Below, one piece after another: positions 3,108 to 32,650 of a stretch of DNA of 42,307 nucleotides (the stretch's first letter is position 1; each line of letters starts with the position of its first letter). The stretch covers positions 1 to 42,307 of IMG/VR virus record IMGVR_UViG_3300010389_000039; one strand, given 5' to 3'. The notes below the pieces were generated by a model, which saw nothing but the letters and a program-made list of their open reading frames with translations, had not been told where the DNA came from and ran no database searches. Made by a program: the position numbers and the translations under genes. This DNA is from a virus.

Positions 3108-6100
3108 ATGTTGCAAAAGAGAGTAAAAATCCAATCCGTAGTTGAAAATCAACTGCCAGAGTTTGTTTTATCTGAATCTCAAAGATCTGTAGATTTTTTA
3201 GAGACATATTATCGCTCAGTTGAGTTTCAGGGTGCTCCTGTCAATATTTTAGAAAATATTGATCAATATGTAAAGGTTGGAACTTATTCCTCTATTGTTG
3301 GATTTACTTCTATCACTGAGGACGTTCAAGAATTTGATGCTACCATTCCAGTTGGTAGTACAAGTGGTTGGCCTGATAGATATGGTCTGTTGCAAATTGA
3401 AGACGAAATTATTACATACACTAGCAAGACAGATACAGCATTTACAGGATGTATTCGTGGATTTAGTGGGATCACTACTTATAGGAGTGTAAGCAATCCC
3501 AGTGAACTTGTTTTTGAACAAAGTGAGGCAGAATCTCACGTTAATGGTAGTACTGTTAAAAACTTATCTGCAATTTTGTTGAATGAGTTTTTAAGAAAAC
3601 TCAAAGTTCAATTTTTGCCTGGATTTGAAGATAGAGAGTTAGCAACAGATTTAAACGTTGTAAACTTTATTCGTCAAGCAAAAGATTTTTATACTTCAAA
3701 GGGAACGAAGGGATCTTTTGAGATTTTATTCAGATCAATCTTTGGAGAAGATGTTGAGGTCATAAAACCTCAAGATGATCTCTTTATCCCATCAGATGCT
3801 GGATATAGAAGAACAAAGCAACTAACTGTAGTTCCAGTTACTGGAGATTTAAGAGATCTTAAGACAAAAACGATTTATCAGGATAATGATAAGGGTGAAA
3901 ATATTTCATTTGGATCAGTTGTTGATGTTCAAGAAGTAGGCAACAAAAACTTTTACAGGATTAATGTTGATTATCTCTTTGATGCAGATACCAATGTATT
4001 TGGAACAATCTTTGGTGAATTTAGTATGGATTCAAATACCAGAGTGATAGGAAACGTATCTTCTGGTTCTACGGTCATTAATGTAGACTCTACTGTTGGT
4101 TTTGGAACAACAGGAACATTGAGTGTTGATTTCTCTAATGGTGTTAATGGATTAGTTGAATATACTTCAAAATCAAATACACAATTTTTTGGATGCTCTG
4201 GAATTTCATCGATAATTTTAGATAAAACTGAGTTATTCAATAACACTTCAAGTTATGGTTATGACGATGATGGAAATAAAATTGAATTCAAAGTAAAGGG
4301 ATCTCTTAACGAATTCACTCAAGTATCTAATGATGTTCCTTTCTATGAGAAAGAAGATATTATTACTTTGAAATCTCTTGGTTCTATTAGAGATAATTTG
4401 GTAGAAGATTCTTTAATTTATAACAATTCTTTTACTTTAGATGTAGAAAAAATTGAAGCGATCTTCAATGGTTATTCAATTCAAACATATGACGCCCATA
4501 TGTTTAGATCTGGTGATTCTATCACAGTTACAGATGGAAGTGGAAATACATTTACCGGAACCATTCAAAAAGTCAAAAGCAATAATATTGTCGAATCAAA
4601 TAAACTGACTGGAATTAATTTAGCAAAAGGACCATTTATTGTAAGAAGAGACATTTCCTTTGTCGATTCAAAGCAATCAAATTTAAATGTATTCCAACCA
4701 GATGTTTTGGCAGCGTATCGTGATTTGGATGACAATGTTTACATTGCATCAAACTCTTTGCCAAAATACAGAGATCCAATTGAAACAGAATCTGGTAAAA
4801 TTGAATTAAAGAATACTGCATTCAGTGGAGATACTTTTAATATTAATAATCATGGTTTATATACTGGTGAGAGAGTACATTACACTCCAGATATCACTCT
4901 TGACATTACCAGAGAGAATGGAGTGATTGTAGACATTGCTCGTTTTACAACTCCTTTAGGAACGCTTGATGAAGGTGAATATTTTGTAAAGAAAGTCAAT
5001 GATAATCAATTCAAATTAGCTGCTTCAAGAGCAGACATTTATTTTGAAAAATATCAAACTATTACTGGTTTTGCAACCGATCAATCTATTGATCCATCTT
5101 TAAGTTTTAAAAATAGACTTGATGCTACAAAACAATTAACGTTTATTCCAGGAAGTCCTGAGACTATCTCAACTAAAGTATCTACAAAACAAGGACTAAC
5201 TGGTATTCTTGTAAATGGCGTCAATATTATCAATTACAAATCAAATGATTTCATCTATTATGATAATATTGAGTCATTTAATCAATTGAGCGGTGGAGAA
5301 GATTATGATGTAATAAATCCACCGAAAGTTATTATTGGCGATCCTGTTGGATCTGGTGCTACTGCAACAGCAGATGTCATCGGATCTCTCCAATCAATTG
5401 ATGTTTTAAATCCTGGTAGTGATTTCATAGAGAATCCAGTTGTTGAGGTTCGTGGTGGTGGCGGACAAGGGGCAGTAATTAGAGCAAACTTAAAATCAGA
5501 AATTATTGTCAACTTTACAGATACAAGTGAAAGTGCAGGATATATTAGCACTTCTTCAAATACTATTGGGTTCTCAACTTATCATAGACTTAGAACCGGC
5601 GATCTCATTGTTTATAATAGCAATGATCAAACACCAATTGGAATTGGTTCAACAGCATTATCCGAAGTTCGTGATGACATCCTTAGAGATAACGCTTCTT
5701 ACTTTGCAAGAGTAATTGATTTACATAATATCAGTTTACACACAAACTCAGATGATTCCTTTGTTGGTATTGGAACTATCAATATCACTTCTTTTGGTGT
5801 AGGTAATCATATATTCAAAACAGTAGAGACAAAGAGGGTATTAGCATCTTTGTCTGTAGAAAATGCTGGTTCTGGATATAGAAACAATAGAATAGAAGTC
5901 CCTTCATCTGGAATTAATACTGCTTTAAACACTATTTCTTTCAACAATCACGGATTTGTAGATGGTGATATTGTAAAATATTCATTTGAAGGGACTTCGG
6001 TTTCTGGTTTATCAACCACTCAAAAATATTATATTTTAGATAGCGATAAAGATAGTTTTAAATTAGCAGTTGCTGGAGTAGGGACAACTGCTACAACAGT

Positions 6101-9100
6101 TAACTTTGATAGAAAGATTGTCAACGAACTATACTCAGTTGGTGTTGGAACACATATCTTCAACTTCCCAGAAATCGAAGTTATCATTAAAGGAATTTCG
6201 GGCATTGAAACGTCTAATGTCGAAACTTTTGCGGCGAATATTAAACCAAGGTTCAGGGGATATATTAATAAACTTAATCTAATTTCAGGTGGACAGGACT
6301 ATGGTAACGAAGAAATTATTAATTTCAATCGTGAACCAAACATTACCTTTGAGTCTGGTTCTGGAGCACAACTAAAACCAATCATCTCTAAAGGTCAAAT
6401 TAGTGAGGTTTTAATTTTAAATCCAGGATATGATTACAATTCTACACCCAGTTTAACACTTTCTGGACTTGGCACAGGAGCAGTTTTAACACCTATTATT
6501 GAAAATGGTCGTTTTGTTTCCGTAACAGTAAATCAAGGTGGAGCTGGATTCACTACGGATACATCGTTTGTGCATGTTACACCCGCTGGTAAGGGTGCCT
6601 CAGCGAGTGCTAATATTAAGACGTGGAATATTAATGATACACAAAGAAATACAGAGAGAGTAACGAATTCAGATACCTTTATTCATGAAAAATTAAATGA
6701 TTTTTCTAGTGGATCTCTGGGATCTTATTATGTTCCCAGAGATCTTAGAAAGAGTATTAATTCAATCTCACCTAATGGTAATCCTATAATTGGTACTTTT
6801 GATCTTACCTTTGACGGTTTTGAGAGAAATAGTTCAAATCACTCTCCAATTATCGGATGGGCATATGATGGTTGTCCAATTTACGGACCATATGGATATG
6901 ACACACCAGAGGGTGGAACAGTTAGATCCATGGTTTCTGGTTATGAAGAATCCACTAGTTCCAGAAGACCCTCTAGTTATCCAGTAGGTTTCTTTGTCGA
7001 AGATTTTGCATTTACAAAATCAGGAGACCTTGATGAGCATAATGGTAGATTCTGCAAAACACCAGATTATCCAGAAGGAAAATATTGTTATTTTGCAACA
7101 ATAGACTCTGGATCTCCATCTGTAGATGGTAAGTTTAAAAATTACAAACTTCCAACTTTCCCATATTTTATTGGAAACACATATAATGCAAAACCAACCT
7201 TTGAAAATGATGATAAAGATGCAAACCAAGTCTCATTTAAGAGATATGATGATTTGTACAGAAATACCAAAGCGACTGCGGTCAATAATAAGAATGGTAC
7301 AAATGATTACTTGGATTCTTCTATCGATGATCCAAAACAAATTTCAAAAATTAAAGTAATCAAAAAAGGGAAGGTAACTGGTGTCGATATTGTCTCCGCA
7401 GGTTCTAGTTTTAGAATTGGAGATTTTGTTGTATTTGATCAAGAAACTCCAACTTTAGGTAAAAAATCTATTGCAAAAGTTACTAAGATTGAAGGTAAAA
7501 AAGTAGTTTCTATTGCTTCCTCATCAAAAACTTTTGAAAATATTGAACTTTTCTCTGCAGATGGTGGACATATTGTTGGATATGGAACAACTGCACATAA
7601 TCTAGAGAATAGAAGATCGGTTTTTGTCAGTGATTTAAACTCCAATGGATATAGGAATCACCTCGGTATCACTATTAGAAGATTAAACACCAAATTCTGG
7701 TCTCTTAATCAAACAATTGGTGATGTTTCTGCAACTGGTTTAACTACATCCATAAGAATATCTGGTGATTTTAATAAACTTGTTCTCAGAGAAAATAGTA
7801 TCTTAGGTTTTGGAACTGCTGGAAACATAGGAGAACAGATTAAGGTATTAAACGTAGACCCCCTCAACAGCAGAGTAAAAATACAAAGAGAATATAATGG
7901 AACTGTTGGTGCTGCTTATTCAACTGGTCAATTAATAACAGAAGTTGAAACTAGATTCTATTTAGATAATGATAGCGGTGTTTCTACTTCCACAAATCCT
8001 CCAACTTTCCAGAGATATTTTAATCCATCCGAAGTTGTTGGTTTGGGAACAACAACTAGTAATGGTGTTGCTGGTATTGGAACAACAGTTACTTATGAAC
8101 AGTTTAATAATATTACTCCTCCACATCTCAATAATATAAACTATAGTCAAGGAATAGGAAGAACATCTAGAGTTATTCCATTCAGTTCAATACTTATTCC
8201 AAATCATTCCTTTGAAACAGGAGACAAGTTAGAGTATTCTGCAAATGGAGAGACACCCATTGAGGTATCTAATTTATCTTTCAGTTTTGATCTGCCAGTT
8301 GGAATTGCTACGACAATCTACGCTATTAAGATAAGTGATGATCTTTTAGGTATTTCAACAGAATCAGTTGGACTTGGATCAACAGGTCTTCAGGTAGGAA
8401 CTCGACTTTCATTTACTGGAGTTGGTGCAGGCACCACTCATTCATTCAAAGCATTAACAAATCCATTAACTGCTACTTTAAAAACTCATGAGGCAACATT
8501 TACAACATCTGAACCACATCTATTGAAATTTGATGACCTTATTGATATCGAAGTAGAACCAGCAACAATCAATGAGTCATTTGTTCAATATAATAATTAT
8601 CACAGAAGAATTGTTTTTGATAGAGCACTGATTACCGGTGTTACATCAACAACAGATAGTTTGACAATTCCAAATCACAAAATAGACAGAGACGGTCAAA
8701 AAGTTATATTCACAACAACTGGAACAGCTCCAGGTGGACTGGTAGATAATGGAATATACTATGCGATCATCATGGGCGATAATACTATAAAACTTGCCTC
8801 TACATTCCGCGATGCACGAAATAATGTTGGTATTTGTACTCCAATTAACATCACCTCCAGTGGAAGTGGTGAAAACTTTGTATCCAAGATAAATCCGGTT
8901 GTTTCTGCTTACAAAGGTTCTAAAGTTTCATTTGCACTTACAGACACATCTCTGAGTAATCTTGTCGGTGGAGTGAGAATAAGTGCTTTTGATATGAACA
9001 TCTATACAGATGAGTTATTTGAAAATAAATTTTTGACTACCAAAAATAATTCAACTTTCAATGTTCAGAAAGTAGGAACTGTTGGTGTCACAACTGATGC

Positions 9101-12100
9101 AGCACTGACAATAAGAATTGACTCTAATGTTCCTAAAACTCTGTATTATAAATTTGAAAATGCAAATATTGGTTTAATCTCAAAAGAGCAATCTGAGTTA
9201 ATTATTGATGAAGAGCAGAACAAATACAACCAGATTGTAGTTGGCGGTAGTCTTTTTAACTTCTCTGCTTATCCTTTAGGGATTGGAACAACAACCTTTA
9301 CTTATGATATCGCAAGAAAAACAGAAGCAACTGAATATACGACAGACAATTCCATACTCAAATATTCTAGTAGAAAAACTGACGCTATGGGTTCCATTGC
9401 AGGAATCGATATTGTTCAAAGAGGAAGTGGATATACATCTATTCCTGGCATAACATCAGTTATCACTGAGAAGGGGACGGGGGCAAATCTTACTCCCATT
9501 GGGGACATGGGTAAAATTCAAACAGTTCTCATTGAGGATAATGGATACAATTACCCTTCTGATCCAACTCTTAAGGTATTTGCAAATGCTCCTCAAGTAT
9601 TGATCTTAGATGAATGTTATTCAATTGGAGAAATTGGAATAACATCTGGTGGTAAAAATTATACCACACCACCAACATGGTTGGTCAAAGATTCAACGAC
9701 TAATTTAGTAAAAGATGGTGTAAAGATTTACTCCGAAGTCGAGAATGGAAGGATTACTAAGATTGAAGTTCTTGAGAACACAAATACTTTATCAAATAGT
9801 CAACCTATATTAATTCCAACACAGAATTCTAATGGCATTGGAATTCAAACCATTACTTATGATTCTTCGAGTAGAATAGTTTCTGTTGGTTTTGATACTG
9901 GTTTCTCAGATTCCTTCCCATTTGCTGTTGGAGATGAAGTCTATGTAGAAAACGTTGGTCTCGCCACTGCTGGATCTGGATATAATTCATCTGACTATGA
10001 TTATCAAAAGTTTAAACTTATTGAAATTAATGCCAATGTTGGCGGTATTGGAAGTGTTAAGTATCAACTTCCATCAACTGTAACAGATCCAGGAGGATAC
10101 TCTGTAGATAAGGGTTATGGCAAGATGATTCCAGCATCTTATCTGCCAACATTTGATATTAGTTTGTTCTCAGTTGATTTTTATGATGGAGAGGATGTTT
10201 CAAACGGCGAAACTAAAGGTGTAGTTTCTAAATGGAACAATAATTCCAAGACTCTTAAAGTTACTGGAGGCGACTTCCAAGAGGGAGACGTTGTTAATGG
10301 AGTATCTAGTGGAAAGTTTGGAATAGTCATCAAAAAGTATGATGATGAATCGTATTTTTATATTGCAGCAGATCCCATCAGGTCATCTGGATGGACCAAA
10401 GAAACAGGAAAGACAAGCATCAATACTCAAAGAATTCATGATAGTGACTACTATCAGTATTTCTCTTATGCTCTCAAATCAAAGATTCCATATTCTTCCT
10501 GGGATGAACCAGTTTCTTCTTTAAACCACACTTCAGGATTTAAGAAGTTTTCAAATATGGTTGTTGAGAGTGAAATTGAGGAAAATGTAAGAACTAAACC
10601 TAATGTAGATAGTGATGTTACTACAAATGTTGAACTTTCATCTGTAACACCATTATATTGCTACAATGATTTTGATTATGCTACTGAAAAGACCAAAACA
10701 GTTTCAGATAGCACTTTCTCTTATCAAGTGATATTTGAAAATAAAGAACTTATAGATCATACTAAGTCTATTGGAAACAGAGTTCTAAGCATCGATGATT
10801 TTAGTGGTGAATTTAATAGTCAACCAAGATCTGAGAGATTCTCTGTTGTTGATACCTTTAAACTAGATGAAGTAAGAGCTAGAAAGTATGTTTTAGAGGC
10901 ACATGATTCTCAATTTACTGCTGATGTTTCTATGGGAATTGTTGAATTGATTATCAATGATTCTGGTACGGCACATATTCAAGAATATGGAATTCTCAGT
11001 AATGGATTTGATTCTTATTATGATTTTTCAATTTCCGGCGATGAAGGACAACTTATATTCTATCCAGAAAAGTTTAGTTTCAATAATTATGATATTCAAG
11101 GACAAGTCTTTAGTTTCTCTAAAGATACTTTCTCTGCAGTTGGCATATCCACTTTAGTTGGTGCCGCTACTACTTTATCCGACATTGCACAAATTGAAAA
11201 TAGAGGTGGACAAATTTCTTCTGGTGTTGGTACTGCCGTTAACATCTTCAGTTTTGATACTGCAGAATATAATGCATTTAAACTATTAGTGGTAGCAGAT
11301 CAAGACGGAATTCAAGAGATGAGCAATGTCAATATTATTCAAGATGGTAGTGATGTTTATCTTCTTGATTATGCAAGAATAACAAATGATACTTCATCTA
11401 CAACATTATCCTACCCTGGCATTGGAACATTTGGAGCAGAACTAGATTCTTCAATTGTATATTTAAATTATACTCCAGCAACTGCTGTTGGTGCCGCAGT
11501 TACTTTCAATATACTCGCGACAGGACTCAAATCTGGAGTTAGTACTGTTGGAATTTCTACAACTCAGATAAAGAATGGTAGAATAATTGCAGGATTTACT
11601 TCAATTCCTGCATCTGGATCTCCTGGAATTACCACTATCATTCAATTTGTTGATCCAAATGATGGTGGATATTCATTTGTCGAAGTTACTGATGTAACAA
11701 ATGGATACAAATATGGTGTAGAAATTAATGGTATTGGCAACACGGCAACTCAAATTGCCGTAGACTATGCAATTATTGACACTACTCCATCACAATCGGG
11801 ATTGGGGACATTTGGTATTCAAACTGATTCTGATGGAGTTATATCGATTTCATTTGTGCCTAATCCAAGTATAATCACAAATGTTAGATCTATTACACAT
11901 ACAGCAGAATTTGAAAATATAACTCAACCATTTGAGATAGAGGTTGGTGAAGATGCAATTCAATCTGTAGATGGTTTTTATAGAGGAACAGAGGCTGATG
12001 TTAGAAGATCATTTGGTCTTTATCATGATGGTCTTCAAATCTTTACAAGAAATTTCAACGCTGAGGACACTAGCATTGTTTCACTTTCAAGTAACTTTGT

Positions 12101-15100
12101 TACCATTCCAAATCATTTCTTTGTGACTGGAGAAAGACTCACATATTCTTCTCTTGGAACTGGCACAACTTCAAATATTGGCATCGCCACAACAACTGTA
12201 TCTGGCATATCTACAGATAAACTTCCGTTTGATTTATATGCTGTCAAGATTGATGATCAAAGACTTGGATTTGCTGGTTCTGCAGAAGATGCTTTGATAC
12301 TTAAAACTTTCAACTTTACATCAGTTGGTATTGGAACTTCACACGTACTGCAGGCAAATGATCAAAATAGTAAGGTATTGATTGCCCTTGATAATAACAT
12401 TCAAGATCCTGTAGTTTCTGTTGGAATCACAGAGGCATTGACTACTGATTTAGTGTTTGGTGTATCAGGAGTAAACTTGACTGGAGTGACATCCATATTT
12501 GGTGCAGATTTATTACGAATAGATGATGAAATTGTAAAGGTAAGCTCTGTAGGTATTGGAAGCACTAATAGAATTGTTGTTGAGAGGGGATGGATGGGTA
12601 CTCCAATCGTATTCCATGCGACTGGATCTGTAGTTACTAAACTTGAGGGGGCGTACAACATTGTTGGAAACACCCTTAATTTCTATACTGCTCCTAGAGG
12701 TCCAATTCCAGTTGTAGATACCAATGATCCAAATGCTCTTGATTGGACAGGTATCCAAACCCATACAACCTTCAGCGGAAGATCATTCATGAGAAACTCG
12801 GCACTGGGTCTCTCTACTCACACATATTCAACTAACTATGTGTTTGATAATATCAATAGAGGATTTAATGGAATCAACAAAACGTTCTCATTAACGGTAG
12901 ATAATCAAGAAGTTGCTGGATTCAGCACTGATAATGCACTCGTTCTTGTTAATCAAATTGCTCAGATTCCATCAATGGGATCAGATACAAACAACTTTAC
13001 TCTCACTGAAAGTTCAGGGCAGACTGACATTGTATTTACTGGTGTTGCTGCTTCTGCTACCAGTGACGTAAATTCTAGTGGTGTGCCAGTTGGTGGAGTT
13101 ATCATTTCCGTAGGTTCTAGTGAGGGATTTGGTTATCAACCATTAGTTGCAGCTGGTGCAACTGCCATTATCTCTGGCATTGGTACGATTGAGAGTCTTG
13201 GATTAGGAAATACTGGATCTGGTTATCGAGTAGGTGTTGAAACAAGTGGAGTAGTATATGATGTAGTATATAATGTTGGTATTAAGTCCGATACAGAAAC
13301 TATATCTATTGGCACTGCTGTTGTCTCTGGAGGACACGTAACTCAACTTGTCTTGGACGCACCATACACTGCTGGGAGTGCATTTACTTCGACAAATCCA
13401 CCAAAAGTAGTTATTGACTCTCCAATATCTTACAGCAACATCCCTCTTCACTATGATTCTGCTTCTACCGGTGCTGGTCTAGGAACAGAGGCAAGAGTTG
13501 ATATTCAAGTTGGTCAAGGTTCTAGTGTTATCAACTTCACCATTAGAAATACTGGATATGGATATCTTGAGAAAGAAATCCTTACTGTTCCAACAACGGG
13601 ACTTGCAGGAATTCCAACAGATATAACTGCTGGTAACAATTTTGTTCCCTTCAATATCAATATTGAATCAGTTGCATTTGATGAGTTCTCTGCATGGCAT
13701 TTTGGTGCTTTAGAAGTTCTTGATTCGTTTGCTGACGAATTTGATGGAACAACCAAAACATTCCAAATGACAAGAGAAGGAGAACCATATTCCATTAATA
13801 CCAATAAAGGTTCATTGATTGATCTTGAACAAACACTTATTGTCTTTATAAACGATATTCTTCAAGTTCCTGGAGCAGGTTATATTTTCAATGGTGGTTC
13901 TCAAATTAGATTTACAGAAGCACCAAAAGAAGGCGATACAGTTTCCATCATGTTCTATAAAGGAACGGAAGGTGTTGATGTCGAATTCTTTGATATCTTA
14001 GAAACAATTAAAGTTGGTGACACTGTAAGACTTGAAGATGGTGATTACGCACCATTCTATCGTCAAGATCCAAGAACGGTCACAGAGATAGAATCAGTTA
14101 ATACTGTTGATACAAATCCTTATATTGGCGTTGGCGTGGTTACTGACACTACTTTCTCTAGACCTGTAACCTGGTGTAAGCAACAGGAAGATATCTTTAT
14201 TAATGGAACAGAAGTTACTAAAGATAGACTTCTTTACGAACCAAATATTTTCCCATCATCATACTTGATTAATAATGTAGGTATTGGTTCGACATTCATC
14301 TATGTCGATAAACTCAGACCATTGTTTACTGCTACCAATGAAGCAGAAGAAGATAATGATAAAATTACCTTTATCAGTCAAGAGAATACTTATTCGGGAG
14401 AAATCAGTGCAACTGTCTCTGGATTTGGTACGGTAACATTGAGTATTGATAATTCTGGATATGGACACACAGTAGCACCCACAGTTACTGTCGCAAGTCC
14501 TTTAGGTGTAACATCAACAGCTACTGCTACTGCTACTATTGGCGCAGGCGGAACAATTTCTGTAGTAACTGTCACTGGACCAGGTGCTGGTTATACAAAT
14601 ACGAACGTACCACAAGTGCTTGTTTCTCCAACTGGACCAACAACTTTAGATATTGAAGCAGGTGTAATTGAAGGTGACTCTGGAATAATTGTTGGTATTG
14701 GATCTACTGGAAATAATATGGTGAACTTTGATCTCTTTATTCCAATGAATTCTGCTTTTAGAAATGCTGCACTTGTTGGAACTGCTATTACGATTAGTGG
14801 TATTTCAACTGGAGATTACTTCGTTGTTACCGATACAAGTGTCGGTGTTGCAGAGACCTCTATTAATTCTCTGGATAGTGCAGATAATATTGTTGGAACT
14901 GGTATTTCATTCTTTGACAATGTATACATCGTTGATTCATTATCAATTGTTGGTGTTGCAACAACGGCAATTGGTCTTTCTACAGATGTTTCTGTTGGAA
15001 CTGCTGTTACTTATGTAACAAGAGTAAATGTAAAGGTAGAAGAATTAAATGGCGACTCCACGGTTGGTATTGGAACTTCATTCTTTGCAGGTAATTACAG

Positions 15101-15233
15101 TTGGGGCAAAATCACAATGGGCGAAATCACTAAGGAATTTTCCGCTCAAACATTAGAGGGTATTGCTGGATTGACAACATCAACATTAGTAAATAGGACC
15201 ACAAAACTAAAATCAAAAGGTTATGTGGTGTGA
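3108..15233 (+). CDS. 7: Giant gp7-type baseplate wedge initiator with YHYH-like domain and many repeat modules
   Basis: The product has 4041 residues, against about 1032 in T4 gp7, and sits between gp6 and gp8 as T4 gene 7 does. The first 250 residues (start MLQKRVKIQSVVENQLP; NVVNFIRQAKDFYTSKGTKG near 180-200; SFEILFRSIFGEDVEV) resemble the gp7 N-terminus of marine T4-like phages. The rest looks assembled from beta-rich modules. There are at least seven 'H-x-F-x-TGD-x-V-x-Y' units, at residues about 464, 582, 826, 948, 1700, 1857 and 3003. Many 'G-x-GY-xxx-PT' units occur, densest at about 725-1165 and 3770-3840. A YHYH-like domain spans about 1190-1365 (HSPIIGWAYDGCPIYGP at 1245; FPYFIG near 1350). 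Related VxDGxDVY units lie at about 2590-2820. The job is inferred: wedge nucleation, with extra modules probably exposed on the baseplate rim. The gene is unbroken over 12.1 kb. Confidence 0.85.
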   Translation: MLQKRVKIQSVVENQLPEFVLSESQRSVDFLETYYRSVEFQGAPVNILENIDQYVKVGTYSSIVGFTSITEDVQEFDATIPVGSTSGWPDRYGLLQIEDEIITYTSKTDTAFTGCIRGFSGITTYRSVSNPSELVFEQSEAESHVNGSTVKNLSAILLNEFLRKLKVQFLPGFEDRELATDLNVVNFIRQAKDFYTSKGTKGSFEILFRSIFGEDVEVIKPQDDLFIPSDAGYRRTKQLTVVPVTGDLRDLKTKTIYQDNDKGENISFGSVVDVQEVGNKNFYRINVDYLFDADTNVFGTIFGEFSMDSNTRVIGNVSSGSTVINVDSTVGFGTTGTLSVDFSNGVNGLVEYTSKSNTQFFGCSGISSIILDKTELFNNTSSYGYDDDGNKIEFKVKGSLNEFTQVSNDVPFYEKEDIITLKSLGSIRDNLVEDSLIYNNSFTLDVEKIEAIFNGYSIQTYDAHMFRSGDSITVTDGSGNTFTGTIQKVKSNNIVESNKLTGINLAKGPFIVRRDISFVDSKQSNLNVFQPDVLAAYRDLDDNVYIASNSLPKYRDPIETESGKIELKNTAFSGDTFNINNHGLYTGERVHYTPDITLDITRENGVIVDIARFTTPLGTLDEGEYFVKKVNDNQFKLAASRADIYFEKYQTITGFATDQSIDPSLSFKNRLDATKQLTFIPGSPETISTKVSTKQGLTGILVNGVNIINYKSNDFIYYDNIESFNQLSGGEDYDVINPPKVIIGDPVGSGATATADVIGSLQSIDVLNPGSDFIENPVVEVRGGGGQGAVIRANLKSEIIVNFTDTSESAGYISTSSNTIGFSTYHRLRTGDLIVYNSNDQTPIGIGSTALSEVRDDILRDNASYFARVIDLHNISLHTNSDDSFVGIGTINITSFGVGNHIFKTVETKRVLASLSVENAGSGYRNNRIEVPSSGINTALNTISFNNHGFVDGDIVKYSFEGTSVSGLSTTQKYYILDSDKDSFKLAVAGVGTTATTVNFDRKIVNELYSVGVGTHIFNFPEIEVIIKGISGIETSNVETFAANIKPRFRGYINKLNLISGGQDYGNEEIINFNREPNITFESGSGAQLKPIISKGQISEVLILNPGYDYNSTPSLTLSGLGTGAVLTPIIENGRFVSVTVNQGGAGFTTDTSFVHVTPAGKGASASANIKTWNINDTQRNTERVTNSDTFIHEKLNDFSSGSLGSYYVPRDLRKSINSISPNGNPIIGTFDLTFDGFERNSSNHSPIIGWAYDGCPIYGPYGYDTPEGGTVRSMVSGYEESTSSRRPSSYPVGFFVEDFAFTKSGDLDEHNGRFCKTPDYPEGKYCYFATIDSGSPSVDGKFKNYKLPTFPYFIGNTYNAKPTFENDDKDANQVSFKRYDDLYRNTKATAVNNKNGTNDYLDSSIDDPKQISKIKVIKKGKVTGVDIVSAGSSFRIGDFVVFDQETPTLGKKSIAKVTKIEGKKVVSIASSSKTFENIELFSADGGHIVGYGTTAHNLENRRSVFVSDLNSNGYRNHLGITIRRLNTKFWSLNQTIGDVSATGLTTSIRISGDFNKLVLRENSILGFGTAGNIGEQIKVLNVDPLNSRVKIQREYNGTVGAAYSTGQLITEVETRFYLDNDSGVSTSTNPPTFQRYFNPSEVVGLGTTTSNGVAGIGTTVTYEQFNNITPPHLNNINYSQGIGRTSRVIPFSSILIPNHSFETGDKLEYSANGETPIEVSNLSFSFDLPVGIATTIYAIKISDDLLGISTESVGLGSTGLQVGTRLSFTGVGAGTTHSFKALTNPLTATLKTHEATFTTSEPHLLKFDDLIDIEVEPATINESFVQYNNYHRRIVFDRALITGVTSTTDSLTIPNHKIDRDGQKVIFTTTGTAPGGLVDNGIYYAIIMGDNTIKLASTFRDARNNVGICTPINITSSGSGENFVSKINPVVSAYKGSKVSFALTDTSLSNLVGGVRISAFDMNIYTDELFENKFLTTKNNSTFNVQKVGTVGVTTDAALTIRIDSNVPKTLYYKFENANIGLISKEQSELIIDEEQNKYNQIVVGGSLFNFSAYPLGIGTTTFTYDIARKTEATEYTTDNSILKYSSRKTDAMGSIAGIDIVQRGSGYTSIPGITSVITEKGTGANLTPIGDMGKIQTVLIEDNGYNYPSDPTLKVFANAPQVLILDECYSIGEIGITSGGKNYTTPPTWLVKDSTTNLVKDGVKIYSEVENGRITKIEVLENTNTLSNSQPILIPTQNSNGIGIQTITYDSSSRIVSVGFDTGFSDSFPFAVGDEVYVENVGLATAGSGYNSSDYDYQKFKLIEINANVGGIGSVKYQLPSTVTDPGGYSVDKGYGKMIPASYLPTFDISLFSVDFYDGEDVSNGETKGVVSKWNNNSKTLKVTGGDFQEGDVVNGVSSGKFGIVIKKYDDESYFYIAADPIRSSGWTKETGKTSINTQRIHDSDYYQYFSYALKSKIPYSSWDEPVSSLNHTSGFKKFSNMVVESEIEENVRTKPNVDSDVTTNVELSSVTPLYCYNDFDYATEKTKTVSDSTFSYQVIFENKELIDHTKSIGNRVLSIDDFSGEFNSQPRSERFSVVDTFKLDEVRARKYVLEAHDSQFTADVSMGIVELIINDSGTAHIQEYGILSNGFDSYYDFSISGDEGQLIFYPEKFSFNNYDIQGQVFSFSKDTFSAVGISTLVGAATTLSDIAQIENRGGQISSGVGTAVNIFSFDTAEYNAFKLLVVADQDGIQEMSNVNIIQDGSDVYLLDYARITNDTSSTTLSYPGIGTFGAELDSSIVYLNYTPATAVGAAVTFNILATGLKSGVSTVGISTTQIKNGRIIAGFTSIPASGSPGITTIIQFVDPNDGGYSFVEVTDVTNGYKYGVEINGIGNTATQIAVDYAIIDTTPSQSGLGTFGIQTDSDGVISISFVPNPSIITNVRSITHTAEFENITQPFEIEVGEDAIQSVDGFYRGTEADVRRSFGLYHDGLQIFTRNFNAEDTSIVSLSSNFVTIPNHFFVTGERLTYSSLGTGTTSNIGIATTTVSGISTDKLPFDLYAVKIDDQRLGFAGSAEDALILKTFNFTSVGIGTSHVLQANDQNSKVLIALDNNIQDPVVSVGITEALTTDLVFGVSGVNLTGVTSIFGADLLRIDDEIVKVSSVGIGSTNRIVVERGWMGTPIVFHATGSVVTKLEGAYNIVGNTLNFYTAPRGPIPVVDTNDPNALDWTGIQTHTTFSGRSFMRNSALGLSTHTYSTNYVFDNINRGFNGINKTFSLTVDNQEVAGFSTDNALVLVNQIAQIPSMGSDTNNFTLTESSGQTDIVFTGVAASATSDVNSSGVPVGGVIISVGSSEGFGYQPLVAAGATAIISGIGTIESLGLGNTGSGYRVGVETSGVVYDVVYNVGIKSDTETISIGTAVVSGGHVTQLVLDAPYTAGSAFTSTNPPKVVIDSPISYSNIPLHYDSASTGAGLGTEARVDIQVGQGSSVINFTIRNTGYGYLEKEILTVPTTGLAGIPTDITAGNNFVPFNINIESVAFDEFSAWHFGALEVLDSFADEFDGTTKTFQMTREGEPYSINTNKGSLIDLEQTLIVFINDILQVPGAGYIFNGGSQIRFTEAPKEGDTVSIMFYKGTEGVDVEFFDILETIKVGDTVRLEDGDYAPFYRQDPRTVTEIESVNTVDTNPYIGVGVVTDTTFSRPVTWCKQQEDIFINGTEVTKDRLLYEPNIFPSSYLINNVGIGSTFIYVDKLRPLFTATNEAEEDNDKITFISQENTYSGEISATVSGFGTVTLSIDNSGYGHTVAPTVTVASPLGVTSTATATATIGAGGTISVVTVTGPGAGYTNTNVPQVLVSPTGPTTLDIEAGVIEGDSGIIVGIGSTGNNMVNFDLFIPMNSAFRNAALVGTAITISGISTGDYFVVTDTSVGVAETSINSLDSADNIVGTGISFFDNVYIVDSLSIVGVATTAIGLSTDVSVGTAVTYVTRVNVKVEELNGDSTVGIGTSFFAGNYSWGKITMGEITKEFSAQTLEGIAGLTTSTLVNRTTKLKSKGYVV
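6650..7200 (+). other. YHYH-like domain inside gp7
   Basis: Residues about 1190-1365 of gp7 contain HSPIIGWAYDGCPIYGPYGY, LDEHNGRFCKTPDYPEGKY and FPYFIGN in the order typical of the YHYH protein family (from memory). The eponymous Y-H-Y-H position reads Y-C-Y-F (residues 1326-1329), so both histidines of the name motif are missing; H1245 and H1311 remain. This suggests a structural or degenerate metal-site version. Confidence 0.7.
6712..6744 (+). repeat. Perfect 11-bp inverted repeat (hairpin) in gp7
   Basis: GATCTCTGGGA (6712-6722) is the exact reverse complement of TCCCAGAGATC (6734-6744), with an 11-base loop. It lies within the gp7 coding sequence, just before the YHYH-like domain. No T-run follows, so it is not a classic terminator. 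Confidence 0.7.
10870..11550 (+). repeat. Two tandem VxDGxDVYxxxY-type domains in gp7
   Basis: Two successive units of about 90-100 residues each carry a 'V/I-xx-DG/DS-x-x-x-Y/I-xxx-Y' core: IINDSGTAHIQEYG (about 10,950-10,990) and IIQDGSDVYLLDYA (about 11,335-11,375). A third, more diverged unit may follow to about 11,910. The same unit ends the fibre-like protein at 29,095-31,218. Confidence 0.5.
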
Positions 15234-25390: not shown

Positions 25391-26236
25391 ATGTCTCAAC
25401 CATCAAATCGTCAGGGTCTCATCGACTATTGTCTCAGGCAACTCGGTGCTCCTGTTTTAGAAATTAATATTGCAGATGAACAGATCGATGATCTGGTAGA
25501 TGATGCTATTCAATATTTTCAAGAGAGACATTATGATGGTGTCATACAGACACCCATGAAATATAAAATTACGCAAGACGATATTGATAGAGGAAGAGCA
25601 CCAGCAGGAAATGGTGGAACTGTTGGAATTACAACAACAACTGTAACTCAAACTGTTGGAGTAACCACACAATTTGATTTCCAAGAAAACGGTAATTATA
25701 TTCCTTTACCAGATTCCATTATTGGAGTAAATAAAATTTATAGATTTCCAGGAACTCAAACAATGAGTTCTGGAATGTTCAACCTCAAATATCAGTTGAT
25801 GTTGAATGATGTATACTTTTTTGACTCACTTGAATTATTGTCATATTCAATGGTCAAGACAAAGTTAGAAGATATTGATTACTTATTAAATCCACTCAAA
25901 CAGATAAGATTTAATATTAGACAGGGAAGACTTTATATTGATGCTGATTGGTCAGATTTTGCTGCTGGGGATTATATCATTATCGACTGCTGGCGTATCC
26001 TTGATCCAAATGATTTCTCGAAAGTCTACAACGATCGGTTCATTAAGAAGTATTTGACTGCCACTATGAAGAGACAGTGGGGTCAAAATCTTATCAAGTT
26101 CCAAGGGGTCAAATTACCTGGCGGAATTGAACTCAATGGCAGACAAATTTATGATGATGCTGTTCAAGAATTGAAAGAAATTCAAGAGCAGATGTTATCA
26201 ACTTATGAAATTCCACCTCTTGATGAGATCGGGTAA
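25391..26236 (+). CDS. 13: gp13 neck protein (head completion)
   Basis: The product has 281 residues, against 309 in T4 gp13. gp13 and gp14 form the neck that closes the filled head and receives the tail. The signature N-terminus is NRQGLIDYCLRQLGAPVLEI with the DEQIDDLVDDAIQYFQERHYDG helix (about residues 7-45). Later segments GVNKIYRFPG, LNDVYFFDSLELLSYSM and DYIIIDCWRILDPNDFSKVY with YNDRFIKKYLTATMKRQWGQ fit the family. An AGGAGG site lies 9 bases before the ATG. The stop overlaps the gp14 start (TAATG), so the two neck proteins are translationally coupled. Confidence 0.95.
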   Translation: MSQPSNRQGLIDYCLRQLGAPVLEINIADEQIDDLVDDAIQYFQERHYDGVIQTPMKYKITQDDIDRGRAPAGNGGTVGITTTTVTQTVGVTTQFDFQENGNYIPLPDSIIGVNKIYRFPGTQTMSSGMFNLKYQLMLNDVYFFDSLELLSYSMVKTKLEDIDYLLNPLKQIRFNIRQGRLYIDADWSDFAAGDYIIIDCWRILDPNDFSKVYNDRFIKKYLTATMKRQWGQNLIKFQGVKLPGGIELNGRQIYDDAVQELKEIQEQMLSTYEIPPLDEIG

Positions 26237-27600
26237 TGGCACTTAATCCTTATTTCACACAAGGAACTGGAGGCGAGCAGGGTCTTGTTCAAGACTTGAT
26301 CAACGAACAACTTCGTATGTACGGAGTTGATGTTCATTATATTCCAAGAAAATATTTAACAAAGAATACAATCATCAAAGAGGTAATTCAATCTAAATTT
26401 GATGATGCATATCCTATTGAGGCATATGTTAAATCAGATGCCTATGAAGGTTCTGGCATTTTACTTTCCAAGTTTGGTGTTCAAGCACAAGAAGATATTA
26501 CGCTTGTCATTTCAAAGGAAAGATGGGAGACATACATTCAACCTTTGATGAAGAATGAGTCAAATGTTGAACTCGTTACAAGACCAAAAGAGGGCGACTT
26601 AGTATATTTTCCATTAGATGATAGATTATATGAAATCAAGTTTGTAGAACGTGCTGATCCATTTTATCAATTACAGAAACTTTATACCTATGAATTGAGA
26701 TGTGAAGTCTTCCGCTATGAGGACGAAGTCATCGATACGGGTGTTGATGAAATCGATGATAGCACTAAAGATGCTGGATACTCCGAGACTCTTACCCTGG
26801 TAGGAATTGGATCTACTGCAACTGCCAGTGCTACATTCGTCAATGGCGGTATTCAATTCATTAGTATTACCAACCAAGGTCAAGGATACACATATACTCC
26901 AACTGTCGCTATTTCATCTTCACCAGGAATAACTGCAACAGCTGTTGCCATCACAACATCCACAACTGGATTCTCAACTGCATCTTCTATTAGAGAAGTT
27001 CTTCTCACTAATCCTGGTGCTGGATATACTGTGCCACCAACAATTGCGTTCGTCGGTGGCGGAGGAGCAGGTGCTGCTGCAACGGTGGGCATTGCCACCA
27101 CAGGTGGTGTTGGTATTGTAACAATTACCAGCGGTGGTGCTGGATACTCCACAACTCCAACTGTCACATTTAGTTCTCCTGGAACTGGTATAACTGCCCT
27201 TGGTGAGGCAATTGTAAGTTCTGCTGGAACCATAACTGCGATTAGAATTTCAAATGCTGGTTATGGATATACAGTATCCCCAACAATTACGATCAGCGAT
27301 CCTTCTTTGATTGGATCAGGAGATTTTATTTTCAACGAAATCGTAACTGGTGGCAATTCTGGAACTCAAGCAAGAGTTAAAGAATGGGATGCTTCAAATA
27401 ACACGCTTAGGGTTTCTATTGCATCTGGAACCTTTACATATGGCGAAACAATCACTGGTTCAGAATCTGGTTCTTCCTATATTTTGAAGGTTACAAATAC
27501 AGATGATCTACTAGATACATTTGCAGACAATGATAATATTCAAAGAGAGGCAGATGCAATTATTGACTGGACTCAAAGAAATCCATTTGGCGAAGCATAA
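26236..27600 (+). CDS. 14: gp14 neck protein with inserted G-x-GY repeats
   Basis: The product has 454 residues, against 256 in T4 gp14. The first ~185 residues are gp14-like: MALNPYFTQGTGGEQGLVQD, EQLRMYGVDVHYIPRKYLTK, KFGVQAQEDITLVISKERWE and RPKEGDLVYFPLDDRLYEIK. The last ~25 residues (FADNDNIQREADAIIDWTQ, then RNPFGEA) also look like the family's C-terminus. Between them, about residues 190-425, is an insertion: four or five 'GAGYT-xx-PT' repeats and then a 'GEIVTG-xx-SG-xx-A' type module. The insertion thus splits the family fold near its end, and would probably project from the neck. The first gene of the gp13-gp14 pair provides the promoter and ribosome site. Confidence 0.93.
   Translation: MALNPYFTQGTGGEQGLVQDLINEQLRMYGVDVHYIPRKYLTKNTIIKEVIQSKFDDAYPIEAYVKSDAYEGSGILLSKFGVQAQEDITLVISKERWETYIQPLMKNESNVELVTRPKEGDLVYFPLDDRLYEIKFVERADPFYQLQKLYTYELRCEVFRYEDEVIDTGVDEIDDSTKDAGYSETLTLVGIGSTATASATFVNGGIQFISITNQGQGYTYTPTVAISSSPGITATAVAITTSTTGFSTASSIREVLLTNPGAGYTVPPTIAFVGGGGAGAAATVGIATTGGVGIVTITSGGAGYSTTPTVTFSSPGTGITALGEAIVSSAGTITAIRISNAGYGYTVSPTITISDPSLIGSGDFIFNEIVTGGNSGTQARVKEWDASNNTLRVSIASGTFTYGETITGSESGSSYILKVTNTDDLLDTFADNDNIQREADAIIDWTQRNPFGEA
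26800..27310 (+). repeat. G-x-GY-xxx-PT repeats in gp14
   Basis: The units NQGQGYTYTPTVAI, NPGAGYTVPPTIAF, SGGAGYSTTPTVTF and NAGYGYTVSPTITI occur at intervals of about 40 residues, separated by glycine/alanine-rich beta segments. Similar units occur in gp7, gp8 and the 2645-residue protein. Confidence 0.85.
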
Positions 27601-29094: not shown

Positions 29095-31218
29095 ATGAAA
29101 ATGCCCGAAGAGCATAATAACGAATTACCATCTATTGAGGATATCGTAGGGCAGATCGAAGAACTTCCTTCGGTTGATGAATTTATTGAGATGGAAGAAG
29201 AGAAAGTAGAAGAAGAAACACAGATAATTGATGATGCCGAGGGACAACCAAAAATTGAAGTAACTGACGTTATTCAAGCACCCGAATGGGGTGAAGTTTT
29301 GCGTTTGATTAATGATGTACGAGAAAGCATTCCAGAAATACCTGAGATCAAAACATATGACAAAGAACTTGAAGCAATTTGTGAAATTATTGATAATGTA
29401 AGAGAATCAATTCCTGTCGTCCCAGAAGTAAGATATTATGAGGAAGAACTTGAAACGATTAGAGAATCGGTTCAGTCAGTCAAAGATTCGATTCCAACTT
29501 TTCCTACTTGGATTGAAAAAGTAAGCGAAGTTCCAGACTTTACTTGGGTTGGACAAACTTTCAATACGGTTGATGAAAGATTTAAATCAATCAAAGATTG
29601 TGTAGAGACACTTTCATCTCGTATTGAAGATGAATTAAATAGAATTCAAGAAGAAAAAGATACTTTTGTTTTTGAATCAAAAATAGATTTTAAAAGCGTA
29701 CATGACAGAGTAAGTTCTCTCAAAGATCAAATTTATGATCAACTGAAAGAACAATCTGATATCATTTGGAAGTTACAAAAGAAACTCAAAGAGAATCAAA
29801 AAGAATTTGAAATTGTAATTACTGATCAAATAGAAAATAAAATAGATCATTTAGAAGAAGTAACTGCTGAAACTACAAAACGACTTCAAACTTCTTTGAA
29901 TGAAAAGTTTGAATCTATTGGAAATAAACTCGATGAAGAGGTAGACTCACTCAAAACAAAACTCAGTGATCTCCCTAAACCAAAATATTATGAGGAAGAA
30001 CTCAATAAAATTAGAAAGGAACTCAAAAATTTCGAGAGTCTGAGAGAAATTGTTGAACAGATTCAGGTAAGACAAGAGAAGGTAGAAAATCTACAAGAGA
30101 ATTATCTTCTCAATGAACCACCTGAGGAATCTGAAAGCATTGGTTCTGGTCAAGATCCACTCACTCCGATGGATCAAAATTTTGCTACTCTAAAAGATCT
30201 TGCAAGTCATTACAGAATCTTCATCAATCGTATCCAAACCCAACTCTCAACGATGGGTGGCGGTGGTGCTGGATTTGTCAAAGATCTTGATGACGTTGAA
30301 ATTAATGATTCTGATTTGCAGAACCAAGATGTTCTTAATTATGATATTCTCACAGGAAAATGGAGGAATGGTAGACAAGCTGTTGGTGCTGCTGGTACGT
30401 GGGCAGTAACAGATGTTGGCATTAATACAACTAAGTCAGTTGGTATTGCGACAACTTCTGCAAAATCAGGAGTTTCTCTATATGTTGTTGGTGATGCAGA
30501 AGTAACTGGAAATATTTCTGTTGCAGGAACAATCACTTATGATGACGTAACAAATGTAGACTCCCTTGGAATTGTCACCGCGAGAACTGGTATTGATGTT
30601 TTAGCAGGTGGTATCAATGCAACTGGAGTTTCTACATTTAATGCTGGTATTGGAACAATCCATATGGGCATCGGTGCCACAACACTTTTAGTTGATGGTG
30701 ATGCTAGAGTAACAGGAATACTTACAGTTGGCACAGCATCCATTACCATTGATGGAGATAATGATAGGATTATTATTGGAGATGAAGATGATGTTGTAAT
30801 CAATAAGTCAAGTATTGCAATAGAAGGAACAAAAATAGATGGAGGTGGTAACGCTAACTTTACTGGAATTGTCACGGCATTATCCATTGATTTGTCGGCG
30901 GGTAGTTATTTCTCTGGTATAACGACAACTACAACAACCACTGGTACTTCTGTGGCTAGTATTCCTTATGTAACGTATAGATCTGCTTCATATCAAATAC
31001 AATCGACAGAGGGATCAAAATATCAATCAACTAATATACAAGTGATTCACGATGGAACAGATGTTTATATGACAGAATATGGAAAGTTAGAAACTTCAAG
31101 TGGAATAGCAACATTTGGTGCAACTCTTCAACCTGGTGGATCATTAGAATTGCTTGCATATGCTGCTAGTTCTTCATCAACAACGCATAAAGTGCTTTAT
31201 ACAGCAATAAAAGTCTAA
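29095..31218 (+). CDS. Coiled-coil fibre-like virion protein
   Basis: The product has 707 residues. Residues 1-65 are very acidic. Residues about 74-137 hold two to three units of about 27 residues around RESIPEIPEI, RESIPVVPEV and DSIPTFPTW, with YYEEEL-type links; a related LPKPKYYEEELNKI comes near 293. Residues about 150-340 are a long predicted coiled coil. After a glycine-rich hinge (STMGGGGAG) the C-terminal half has YVVGDAEVTGNISVAGTITY and DVTNVDSLGIVTARTGI, peptides typical of marine T4-like phage fibres (from memory). The last ~85 residues carry an IHDGTDVYMTEYG module shared with gp7. It is likely a trimeric fibre or whisker-like virion protein between the terminase genes. An ATG at 29,101 is an alternative start. 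Confidence 0.75.
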   Translation: MKMPEEHNNELPSIEDIVGQIEELPSVDEFIEMEEEKVEEETQIIDDAEGQPKIEVTDVIQAPEWGEVLRLINDVRESIPEIPEIKTYDKELEAICEIIDNVRESIPVVPEVRYYEEELETIRESVQSVKDSIPTFPTWIEKVSEVPDFTWVGQTFNTVDERFKSIKDCVETLSSRIEDELNRIQEEKDTFVFESKIDFKSVHDRVSSLKDQIYDQLKEQSDIIWKLQKKLKENQKEFEIVITDQIENKIDHLEEVTAETTKRLQTSLNEKFESIGNKLDEEVDSLKTKLSDLPKPKYYEEELNKIRKELKNFESLREIVEQIQVRQEKVENLQENYLLNEPPEESESIGSGQDPLTPMDQNFATLKDLASHYRIFINRIQTQLSTMGGGGAGFVKDLDDVEINDSDLQNQDVLNYDILTGKWRNGRQAVGAAGTWAVTDVGINTTKSVGIATTSAKSGVSLYVVGDAEVTGNISVAGTITYDDVTNVDSLGIVTARTGIDVLAGGINATGVSTFNAGIGTIHMGIGATTLLVDGDARVTGILTVGTASITIDGDNDRIIIGDEDDVVINKSSIAIEGTKIDGGGNANFTGIVTALSIDLSAGSYFSGITTTTTTTGTSVASIPYVTYRSASYQIQSTEGSKYQSTNIQVIHDGTDVYMTEYGKLETSSGIATFGATLQPGGSLELLAYAASSSSTTHKVLYTAIKV
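29320..29510 (+). repeat. RESIP repeats at the N-terminus of the fibre-like protein
   Basis: The peptides RESIPEIPEI (residue 76), RESIPVVPEV (103) and DSIPTFPTW (131) recur about every 27-28 residues, linked by E/D-rich helices ending in YDKELEAI or YYEEELETI. The units resemble short helix-proline-hinge segments of a rod. Confidence 0.8.
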
Positions 31219-31242: not shown

Positions 31243-32319
31243 ATGGCAAGCAAGAGCGGAGACTCATCTTTGCGTGATTGGTTCAGTAAGAGTAAGTCTT
31301 CTGACGGTAAACCTGGTTGGGTTCAACTTGGTGGTAAATATGCTGGAAAACCTTGTGCTAGGCAACCAGGACAAACTACCAAACCAAAATGTGGTTCTAG
31401 TAAAATGAAACGTGCTCTTTCTAAAGATGAGGAAGAGGCAGCATTCCGTCGTAAGAATCGTAAAGATCCAAATCCAAATCGTTCAGGGAAGGCAATTAAC
31501 GTGAAAACTGAGGAAACTGTAAACGAAGCAAAAGGCGAAAAGGACGCTTGTTATCATAAGGTCAAGTCACGTTATAAGGTATGGCCTTCTGCATACGCCT
31601 CTGGTGCCCTTGTAAAGTGCCGTAAGGTTGGTGCTTCTAATTGGGGTAATAGTACTAAGAAAGAGGGGTTTACGCCCTCACAGATTGCTGCTCTGGAAGC
31701 AATTGATGCCATTGAAATCAATGAAGCAGGTAAGAAGTGCTGGAAGGGTTATAAGAAGGTAGGCACGCAGAAACTCTTCGGTAAGACCTACAACCGCTGC
31801 GAAAAAGAGGAGGTTGAAAATGGATCTGGACAAGCAAATAGTTCACCTATCACTGAGGCTGTTACTGTACCCCGTGAAAATGGTCAGTTGATGAGAGTCT
31901 TCCTCACCTTTAGAGGAAAATTCTACATGGTTCAACTGTTCTTCCCATCACTTAAAACCCCAACGAAACAGGAAGTTACTGACGCTGTTCAGAAACTTTA
32001 TCCTGATGCTCGTGTAACTCAATACATAAAAGCAACAGTTGATTCAAATCAACCACTTATTAGAGTCAATGAGGCAGCAGCCTGGACAAGAAAGGAAGGT
32101 AAAAATAAAGAAGGTGGACTCAACGAAAAAGGACGTAAGTCCTATGAGCGAGAGAATCCTGGTTCTGATCTCAAAGCACCTTCTAAAAAAGTCGGCAATC
32201 CTCGTCGTGCATCATTCTGTGCAAGAATGAAGGGTATGAAGAAGAAACTGACCTCAAAGAAAACTGCATCTGATCCAGATAGCAGAATTAATAAAAGTTT
32301 GAGAGCTTGGAATTGCTGA
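31243..32319 (+). CDS. Modular Lys/Cys-rich protein with repeated [I/V]-x-E-A junctions; candidate internal head protein precursor
   Basis: The product has 358 residues, strongly basic, with about a dozen Cys. At least five segments are visible: (1) residues 1-92 (SLRDWFSKSKSSDGKPGWVQ, KPCARQPGQTTKPKCGSSK); (2) 96-158 (CYHKVKSRYKVWPSAYASGA); (3) 162-200 (KKCWKGYKKVGTQKLFGKTY); (4) 206-274, related to the next gene; (5) 278-358 (AWTRKEGK, GGLNEKGRKSYERENPGSDL), which resembles, from memory, the family DUF6321. Segments are separated by VNE-A (95/96), INE-A (161/162), ITE-A (205/206) and VNE-A (277/278). T4 prohead protease gp21 cuts after (L/I)-x-E, for example LTE-A in gp23, so processing is plausible but unproven. 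No enzyme motif is seen. A DNA-associated internal capsid protein is the favoured but uncertain idea; related modules occur as unknown proteins in other marine phages. Confidence 0.7.
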   Translation: MASKSGDSSLRDWFSKSKSSDGKPGWVQLGGKYAGKPCARQPGQTTKPKCGSSKMKRALSKDEEEAAFRRKNRKDPNPNRSGKAINVKTEETVNEAKGEKDACYHKVKSRYKVWPSAYASGALVKCRKVGASNWGNSTKKEGFTPSQIAALEAIDAIEINEAGKKCWKGYKKVGTQKLFGKTYNRCEKEEVENGSGQANSSPITEAVTVPRENGQLMRVFLTFRGKFYMVQLFFPSLKTPTKQEVTDAVQKLYPDARVTQYIKATVDSNQPLIRVNEAAAWTRKEGKNKEGGLNEKGRKSYERENPGSDLKAPSKKVGNPRRASFCARMKGMKKKLTSKKTASDPDSRINKSLRAWNC

Positions 32320-32320
32320 T

Positions 32321-32650
32321 ATGAAAAGTTTTAAACAGTTTCTTTCCGAGAGCGTAACTATTCACGGCGACTTCAACGGAACTCTTAATGTTGGAGCAGA
32401 TCCAGTTCGTCAGGAAGTCGAAGAACAAAACCAGTATGTTGCTGATGTAGTTTGGATGGGTAGTATCTATAGAATGAAACTTGAGAGAAAAGAGTCGCTG
32501 AGACTTCCATCAACTCAAGAACTGGCAGAACAACTTCAAAGAGAATATCCTGGTGCGATTGTTCAAAGAATTTATCCTGTGGAACCAAAACCAGAGGTTA
32601 AAATTACAGACGTAAAAAGATATCATCCAGGAAAGTTAAATTGGGAATAA
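32321..32650 (+). CDS. Small protein with capsid-targeting-like N-terminus, paralogue of a module in the preceding gene
   Basis: The product has 109 residues. It begins MKSFKQFLSESVTI. T4 internal protein III begins MKTYQEFIAEA, a capsid-targeting sequence cut by gp21 after FIAE; here FLSE-S fits the (L/I)-x-E rule. Residues 47-84 (G-x-x-Y-x-x-x-L, P-S-T-Q-E-L, YPGAIVQRI) align with residues 225-262 of the preceding protein with one single-residue gap and about 12 identities. The site itself also aligns (LSESVTI with ITEAVTV). The start is ATG at 32,321, one base after the previous stop. It is probably packaged inside the head with cleavage by gp21; the function after cleavage is unknown. Confidence 0.7.
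   Translation: MKSFKQFLSESVTIHGDFNGTLNVGADPVRQEVEEQNQYVADVVWMGSIYRMKLERKESLRLPSTQELAEQLQREYPGAIVQRIYPVEPKPEVKITDVKRYHPGKLNWE

Follow-up and report, generated by a model that had tools for sequence, protein, structure and literature searches.

The internal head proteins of bacteriophage T4 (IPI-III and Alt) are CTS-targeted and processed by gp21. The internal proteins are encoded by single genes in a head-gene neighbourhood, are mostly cut once, and give small basic products. The leader of IPII and IPIII reads MKTYQEFIAE/A (the slash marks a known or predicted cut here and below). In IPIII, processing is governed by leader residues 8 and 10, that is P3 and P1, and Asp at position 10 is inhibitory (PMC9026906). 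Several hydrophobic-x-E/[ASG] sites per precursor are found in the T4 core proteins gp22 and gp67; gp22 acts as a scaffold and is broken down into short peptides. In phiKZ-like phages, the ejection proteins of SPN3US that are substrates of gp245 are packaged in the head and matured by the prohead protease after x-x-E, with Ala, Ser or Gly as the consensus at P3; a propeptide is removed from one large protein (PMC5694885). Polyvalent proteins, known from phages and plasmids (Iyer et al., 2017; PMC5512222), combine many modules, have been likened to viral polyproteins, and are proposed to be co-delivered with the DNA; they contain enzymatic domains and often an embedded metallopeptidase.

The window analyzed here is the whole stretch of 42,307 nucleotides of a virus record from IMG/VR, and the closest cultured relative of its large terminase belongs to Synechococcus phage Bellamy (84% identity). 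The predicted polyprotein gene, at positions 31243-32319 of the + strand, has an ATG start and encodes 358 aa. It matches phrog_727 in a profile search (E=7.3e-147) and contains the Pfam domain DUF6321 (PF19846) at residues 286-356 (E=5.3e-23). Relatives are found in 489 phage records, chiefly of Synechococcus and Prochlorococcus phages, and this family (phrog_727 / T4-GC119) is annotated as hypothetical in most of them. T4-GC119 was described as a hypothetical protein of the zwf/gnd/petE/PTOX cassette (Sullivan et al., 2010; PMC3037559), and that genome paper is the only match of a literature search by family name. The sections of it that bear on the family do not propose modular cleavage of T4-GC119, and literature searches on polyprotein plus prohead protease and on capsid targeting plus cyanophage returned no earlier claim of this kind for the family.

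The ORF sits within the T4-like structural region of the window. Upstream are gp14 (head closure, 454 aa, 26236-27600), gp15 (starting at 27636), the small terminase gp16 (starting at 28664) and a fibre-like gene (starting at 29095). Downstream are the phrog_1742 gene (32321-32650, + strand), a virion structural gene (starting at 32654), the large terminase gp17 (starting at 34631) and, after it, the sheath gp18, the tube gp19 and the portal gp20. The family also lies near gp16 in P-RSM4 and S-SM1, the window having one fibre-like gene in between. Two other features of the window were observed: the C-terminal part of gp14, from about residue 175, matches fibre and virion structural families (the gp14 of P-RSM4 has about 310 aa), and a 4041-aa protein of the baseplate/fibre region (3108-15233) contains a YHYH domain (PF14240).

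Cuts at the four sites discussed below would divide the protein into five products of 95, 66, 44, 72, and 81 aa, all basic and all encoded on the + strand. Predicted product 1 (residues 1-95, 31243-31527, net charge +11) carries module M1, which begins SGDSSLRDWF and has Cys38 and Cys50; product 2 (residues 96-161, 31528-31725, +4) carries M2, which begins KDACYHKVKSRY and has Cys103 and Cys126; product 3 (residues 162-205, 31726-31857, +4) carries M3, of the form CWKGYKK...C, with Cys166 and Cys186; product 4 (residues 206-277, 31858-32073, +4) carries M4; and product 5 (residues 278-358, 32074-32316, +15) carries M5, which is DUF6321, with Cys326 and Cys358. These eight cysteines are invariant in a 40-sequence alignment, exactly two in each of M1, M2, M3, and M5. 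It is possible that each pair forms one disulfide in the extracellular virion; such bonds are only inferred. The fetched loci were searched with profiles of the five modules and of five more taken from relatives; the M1 profile matches 169 ORFs and that of M3 172. Since 59 distinct module orders occur among 136 non-redundant multi-module relatives, the 358-aa protein is shown to be a chain of independently mobile units, and both its modularity and the shuffling are established at the level of sequence. The only Pfam domains in the family are DUF6321 and, as an extra module in some relatives, DUF192.

The AF2 model of the protein (mean pLDDT 61) comprises small folded units, among them M4 as a confident beta-beta-alpha-beta unit, which alternate with stretches of low confidence. 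Each of the four sites falls in a segment with pLDDT<50 (residues 79-99, 157-164, 190-209, and 273-293); such residues number 113 of 358, and the chance of all four sites falling among them is about 1%. Searches of Pfam, PDB sequences and Foldseek gave no function for the protein, and the PDB sequence search found no relative at E<=1. T7 Gp2 and other weak Foldseek look-alikes were not significant (best E=0.21) and were set aside.

The dipeptide E-A occurs in the 358-aa protein at residues 65, 95, 152, 161, 205, and 277. Exactly four of these have a hydrophobic P3, and all four lie between modules: VNE/A (residues 93-96, 31519-31530), INE/A (159-162, 31717-31728), ITE/A (203-206, 31849-31860) and VNE/A (275-278, 32065-32076), all on the + strand; EEE/A at 65 and ALE/A at 152 do not fit the motif. 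This count within one protein is suggestive only. In the 40-sequence alignment, E205 and A206 are almost invariant (39/40 and 37/40) and E277 is kept in 36/40. E95 and E161 are kept in 14/38 and 21/38, often with other E-containing junctions close by; because neither is a fixed column, cuts at these two points are less certain than at E205 and E277. The original prediction, made from the letters of the window without database searches, had named these four [I/V]-x-E-A sites as lying between distinct modules, and both points held when the ORF was re-read and when separate profiles recovered the modules. Its claim that one module is paralogous also held, since residues 206-277 and the phrog_1742 gene share the M4 profile. 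Of the small basic peptides it had foreseen, the charge held and the peptides themselves remain predicted. Junctions conserved amid drifting neighbours were confirmed for E205, A206, and E277, not for E95 and E161, and the weakness it had seen in Val at P3 is eased, since conserved junctions often have Val there.

At the level of the family, the enrichment of the junction motif is strong. Among 553 unique inter-module linkers, 278 contain [ILVMF]-x-E/[AGS], as against 97±8.6 in shuffles that preserve composition; 150 contain the reversed motif. In the whole proteins of 63 dereplicated homologues, the motif occurs 234 times vs 100.9±10.6 after shuffling, and its reverse 119 times vs 102. The shuffles ignore shared ancestry, and related sequences are not independent, so the shuffled values are a guide rather than probabilities. 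At P1 of the linkers, Glu is used 307 times where 125 are expected and Asp 60 times where 63 are expected, which shows that Glu is selected at this position and Asp is not. This choice agrees with T4, because Asp at P1 of IPIII inhibits processing (PMC9026906). The junction before M4 is the clearest: in its 61 unique contexts P3 is hydrophobic in all, P1 is Glu in all, P1' is Ala or Ser in 98% and P2 is free, the strict motif being met in 60. Many AAWT junctions carry Q or H at P3. When the proteins of P-RSM4 were ranked by density of the motif, the family did not stand out, the number of motifs in any one protein being too low; the family member of P-RSM4 has a single strict motif. In favour of the proposal, gp22 and gp23 of phages with this family carry the junction motif too. 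As separate observations on the linkers, an element F[SDN][ND]WRx[DE][FL]...PTDYE(F/T)xDLI of unknown function recurs between modules (26 unique linkers vs 0 expected), and internal targeting-like FQ[DEQN]F peptides appear in a few (8 vs 0.3 expected), too few to build on.

For several of the modules there are also single-gene forms that begin with a T4-like leader. The gene directly after the 358-aa ORF, phrog_1742, starts with the capsid-targeting-like decamer MKSFKQFLSE (32321-32350, + strand), followed by Ser and a single M4 module; the spacing of residues 4, 7, 8, and 10 is that of T4 IPII and IPIII. With 135 phage records, this gene is conserved among cyanophages, and its product is likely a single internal head protein. 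The leader MK[STNDE][FY]..F[LIM].E/[SA] precedes single-gene M4 in 44/44 unique decamers from relatives, always with F or Y at position 4, F at 7, L, I or M at 8, E at 10 and Ser or Ala at 11. Single-gene DUF6321 forms have leaders as well, MKNYKEFKELAE/AAWT, MKSYSDIKNLTE/AAWT and MIDYKEFKRLSE/S (at L203, L230, and L217, respectively). In ACG-2014e, the gene directly after gp16, which is the position of the phrog_727 family in P-RSM4 and S-SM1, reads MRDYKELKELCE/A, then a GLYANI module, TTE/A, and DUF6321, with E/A at both joints. These leader-bearing genes are established by sequence comparison and, since their modules follow the leader at the same junction, so is the coincidence of the T4-type leader-removal point with a module joint of the polyprotein. 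The 358-aa protein itself starts with MASKSGDSSLRDWF, and the capsid targeting sequence MKx[YF]xx[F][ILM]xE is absent from its N-terminus; two polyprotein relatives do begin with such a leader, MKTFQEFILE/A (L075) and MKTFSQFFLE/A (L080). Outside the family, the T4-GC190 cytidyltransferase of P-RSM4 (L087:13173-14333), one of the virion-tagged proteins, has MKKFNAFLIE/A at its N-terminus and is a candidate leader-targeted head protein.

Bare module genes of 47-84 aa, often adjoining capsid or scaffold genes, are present in P-SCSP1g, HTVC168P, P-GSP1, HTVC115P, Pag-Yong1, and CRP-7, and HTVC034P also has a bare DUF6321 gene. Most of them start at a codon no more than a few residues from the predicted cut; the gene of Pag-Yong1, for instance, starts MAKSPAWTRKEGK, compared with E/AAAWTRKEGK in the 358-aa protein, and the free-standing M5/DUF6321 genes of podoviruses (81-84 aa) start near the start of product 5. 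DUF6321 and GLYANI genes are adjacent in P-SCSP1g, HTVC168P, and P-GSP1. In Roseobacter phage CRP-7, M2 is a free 47-aa gene (E=1.4e-13) adjacent to an M5 gene; the match of M1 to CRP-7 gp63 is not significant, and only M2 and M5 are claimed in this phage. Another module, GLYANIHAKRKR, of 45 residues and with no Pfam family, was also observed; it lies next to the DUF6321 gene of T7-like marine podoviruses (L241:5917-6335, L246:2995-3389, and L247:2399-3147) and inside T4-like virion-region proteins. The DUF6321 gene is not mentioned in the relevant sections of the P-SCSP1u cryo-EM paper.

The presence of the protease follows the fusion of the modules. Fourteen phage records with the fused form were considered (10 IMG/VR contigs, P-RSM4, S-SM1, S-E7, and ACG-2014e), and Peptidase_S77 was found in 13 of them; the one record without it is a 107-kb contig and possibly incomplete. 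Neither Peptidase_S77 nor S78 was found in the six phages named first above for their separate module genes, and S78 was absent from all seven bare-gene phages searched. Both halves of this association, S77 in relatives and separate genes without the protease, are shown by sequence, and it is ranked here as the strongest argument for cleavage. The window stops before gp21, so a Peptidase_S77 gene of the source phage itself would lie outside the sequence.

Regarding the virion, 41 proteins were detected by mass spectrometry in S-SM1 (PMC3037559). In the GenBank record of P-RSM4, around 30 genes bear a note that reads "similar to Synechococcus phage S-SM1 protein". Almost all of them are of structural type, and gp18, gp19, gp20, gp21, gp23, T4-GC190, and the phrog_727 / T4-GC119 gene are among them; all nine proteins named in PMC3037559 as newly found in S-SM1 virions bear it as well. 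The note is missing from gp22, gp16, gp17, polymerase, nrd, and psbA, and no replication gene is tagged. Because this pattern matches the S-SM1 virion proteome, T4-GC119 is inferred to be among the 41 proteins. The S-E7 record labels its family member "structural protein, T4 GC0119".

Taken as a whole, the 358-aa protein is likely a prohead-protease polyprotein giving about five small basic internal proteins, with the cleavage itself unproven. The precursor would be packaged with the scaffold into the core of a T4-like prohead, an inferred step. The activated gp21-type serine protease (Peptidase_S77) would then cut after the Glu of [hydrophobic]-x-E at the module junctions, yielding up to five proteins of 44-95 aa. 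These may remain associated with the DNA, with a role in the head or, like T4 internal proteins, after ejection into the host. General cutting at least before M4 (E205) and M5 (E277) belongs to the best explanation of the data, and cuts at E95 and E161 are probable in the source phage; no peptide data show a cut at any of the four. The polyprotein reading of the original prediction is thus mostly supported with the cutting unproven, and its expectation of separate genes for each module in related genomes held for several modules, leader-bearing or bare. Its worry about the missing N-terminal targeting peptide stands for the 358-aa protein, the two relatives mentioned above having one. How the precursor is recruited into the prohead without that leader is the main gap of the model; its entry remains unexplained.

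Two other explanations can be considered. The protein might remain uncut in the virion, the modules being joined flexibly like beads on a string, with linkers rich in E that serve only as spacers and recombination points. The low confidence and variable length of the linkers are compatible with this view, and presence in the S-SM1 virion would fit it equally well. However, a spacer has no cause to prefer Glu over Asp with a hydrophobic residue exactly two positions before, and this reading leaves unexplained both the single genes whose T4-type decamer ends at the same junction and the separate genes in the protease-less phages examined. It is therefore considered unlikely. Alternatively, the protein could be a scaffold-like core protein that is cut and whose pieces are mostly degraded and expelled, as is most of T4 gp22. 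The multiple sites, as in gp22, speak for it, and the lack of a tag on gp22 among the virion proteins suggests that degraded core proteins escape detection. Nevertheless, the virion tag is carried by phrog_727 / T4-GC119 and not by gp22. In addition, conserved units with two invariant cysteines (M1, M2, M3, and M5), some of them independent genes beside capsid genes, are unlike a disposable scaffold. This second alternative appears very unlikely.

The prohead-protease polyprotein, as the preferred reading, can now be placed among the described systems. It resembles the T4 internal proteins in its predicted small basic products and its head-gene neighbourhood, and the spacing of decamer and E/[AS] in the phrog_1742 gene and the single-module relatives is identical to that of IPII and IPIII. 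It differs from the T4 internal proteins in joining several modules with a site between each, and in lacking the N-terminal decamer. Like gp22 and gp67 it has several sites per precursor, but these part conserved modules that are also found free-standing. Compared with SPN3US, several small proteins would separate instead of one propeptide, and P3 is hydrophobic. The feature of polyvalent proteins of having several domains in varied order is met by the 59 architectures; in contrast, neither enzymatic domains nor an embedded metallopeptidase were found with Pfam in the phrog_727 family, whose tiny modules have no known function; as protease, a separate head protease is proposed here. The novelty would consist of the known prohead-protease processing of internal head proteins in polyprotein form, provided that the cleavage, still unproven, takes place.

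A bolder reading, for which the evidence does not tip the balance either way, is that this is a general strategy of tailed phages, a shuffling platform of host-acting or DNA-binding mini-proteins behind gp21 sites. Through one gene, a variable set of mini-proteins would reach the capsid and, from there, the cell; phages without the protease would have to keep the mini-proteins as separate genes. The variation of gene fusion with protease presence represents in this respect a natural experiment. T4-like cyanophages rank with the most abundant viruses of the ocean. The targeting decamer is conserved from the T4 of E. coli to cyanophages, and it would provide a simple pattern to find other internal proteins of marine phages. 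If the proposal is true, a polyprotein mode would be added to capsid maturation, and a set of uncounted internal virion proteins, one per junction product, would be revealed.
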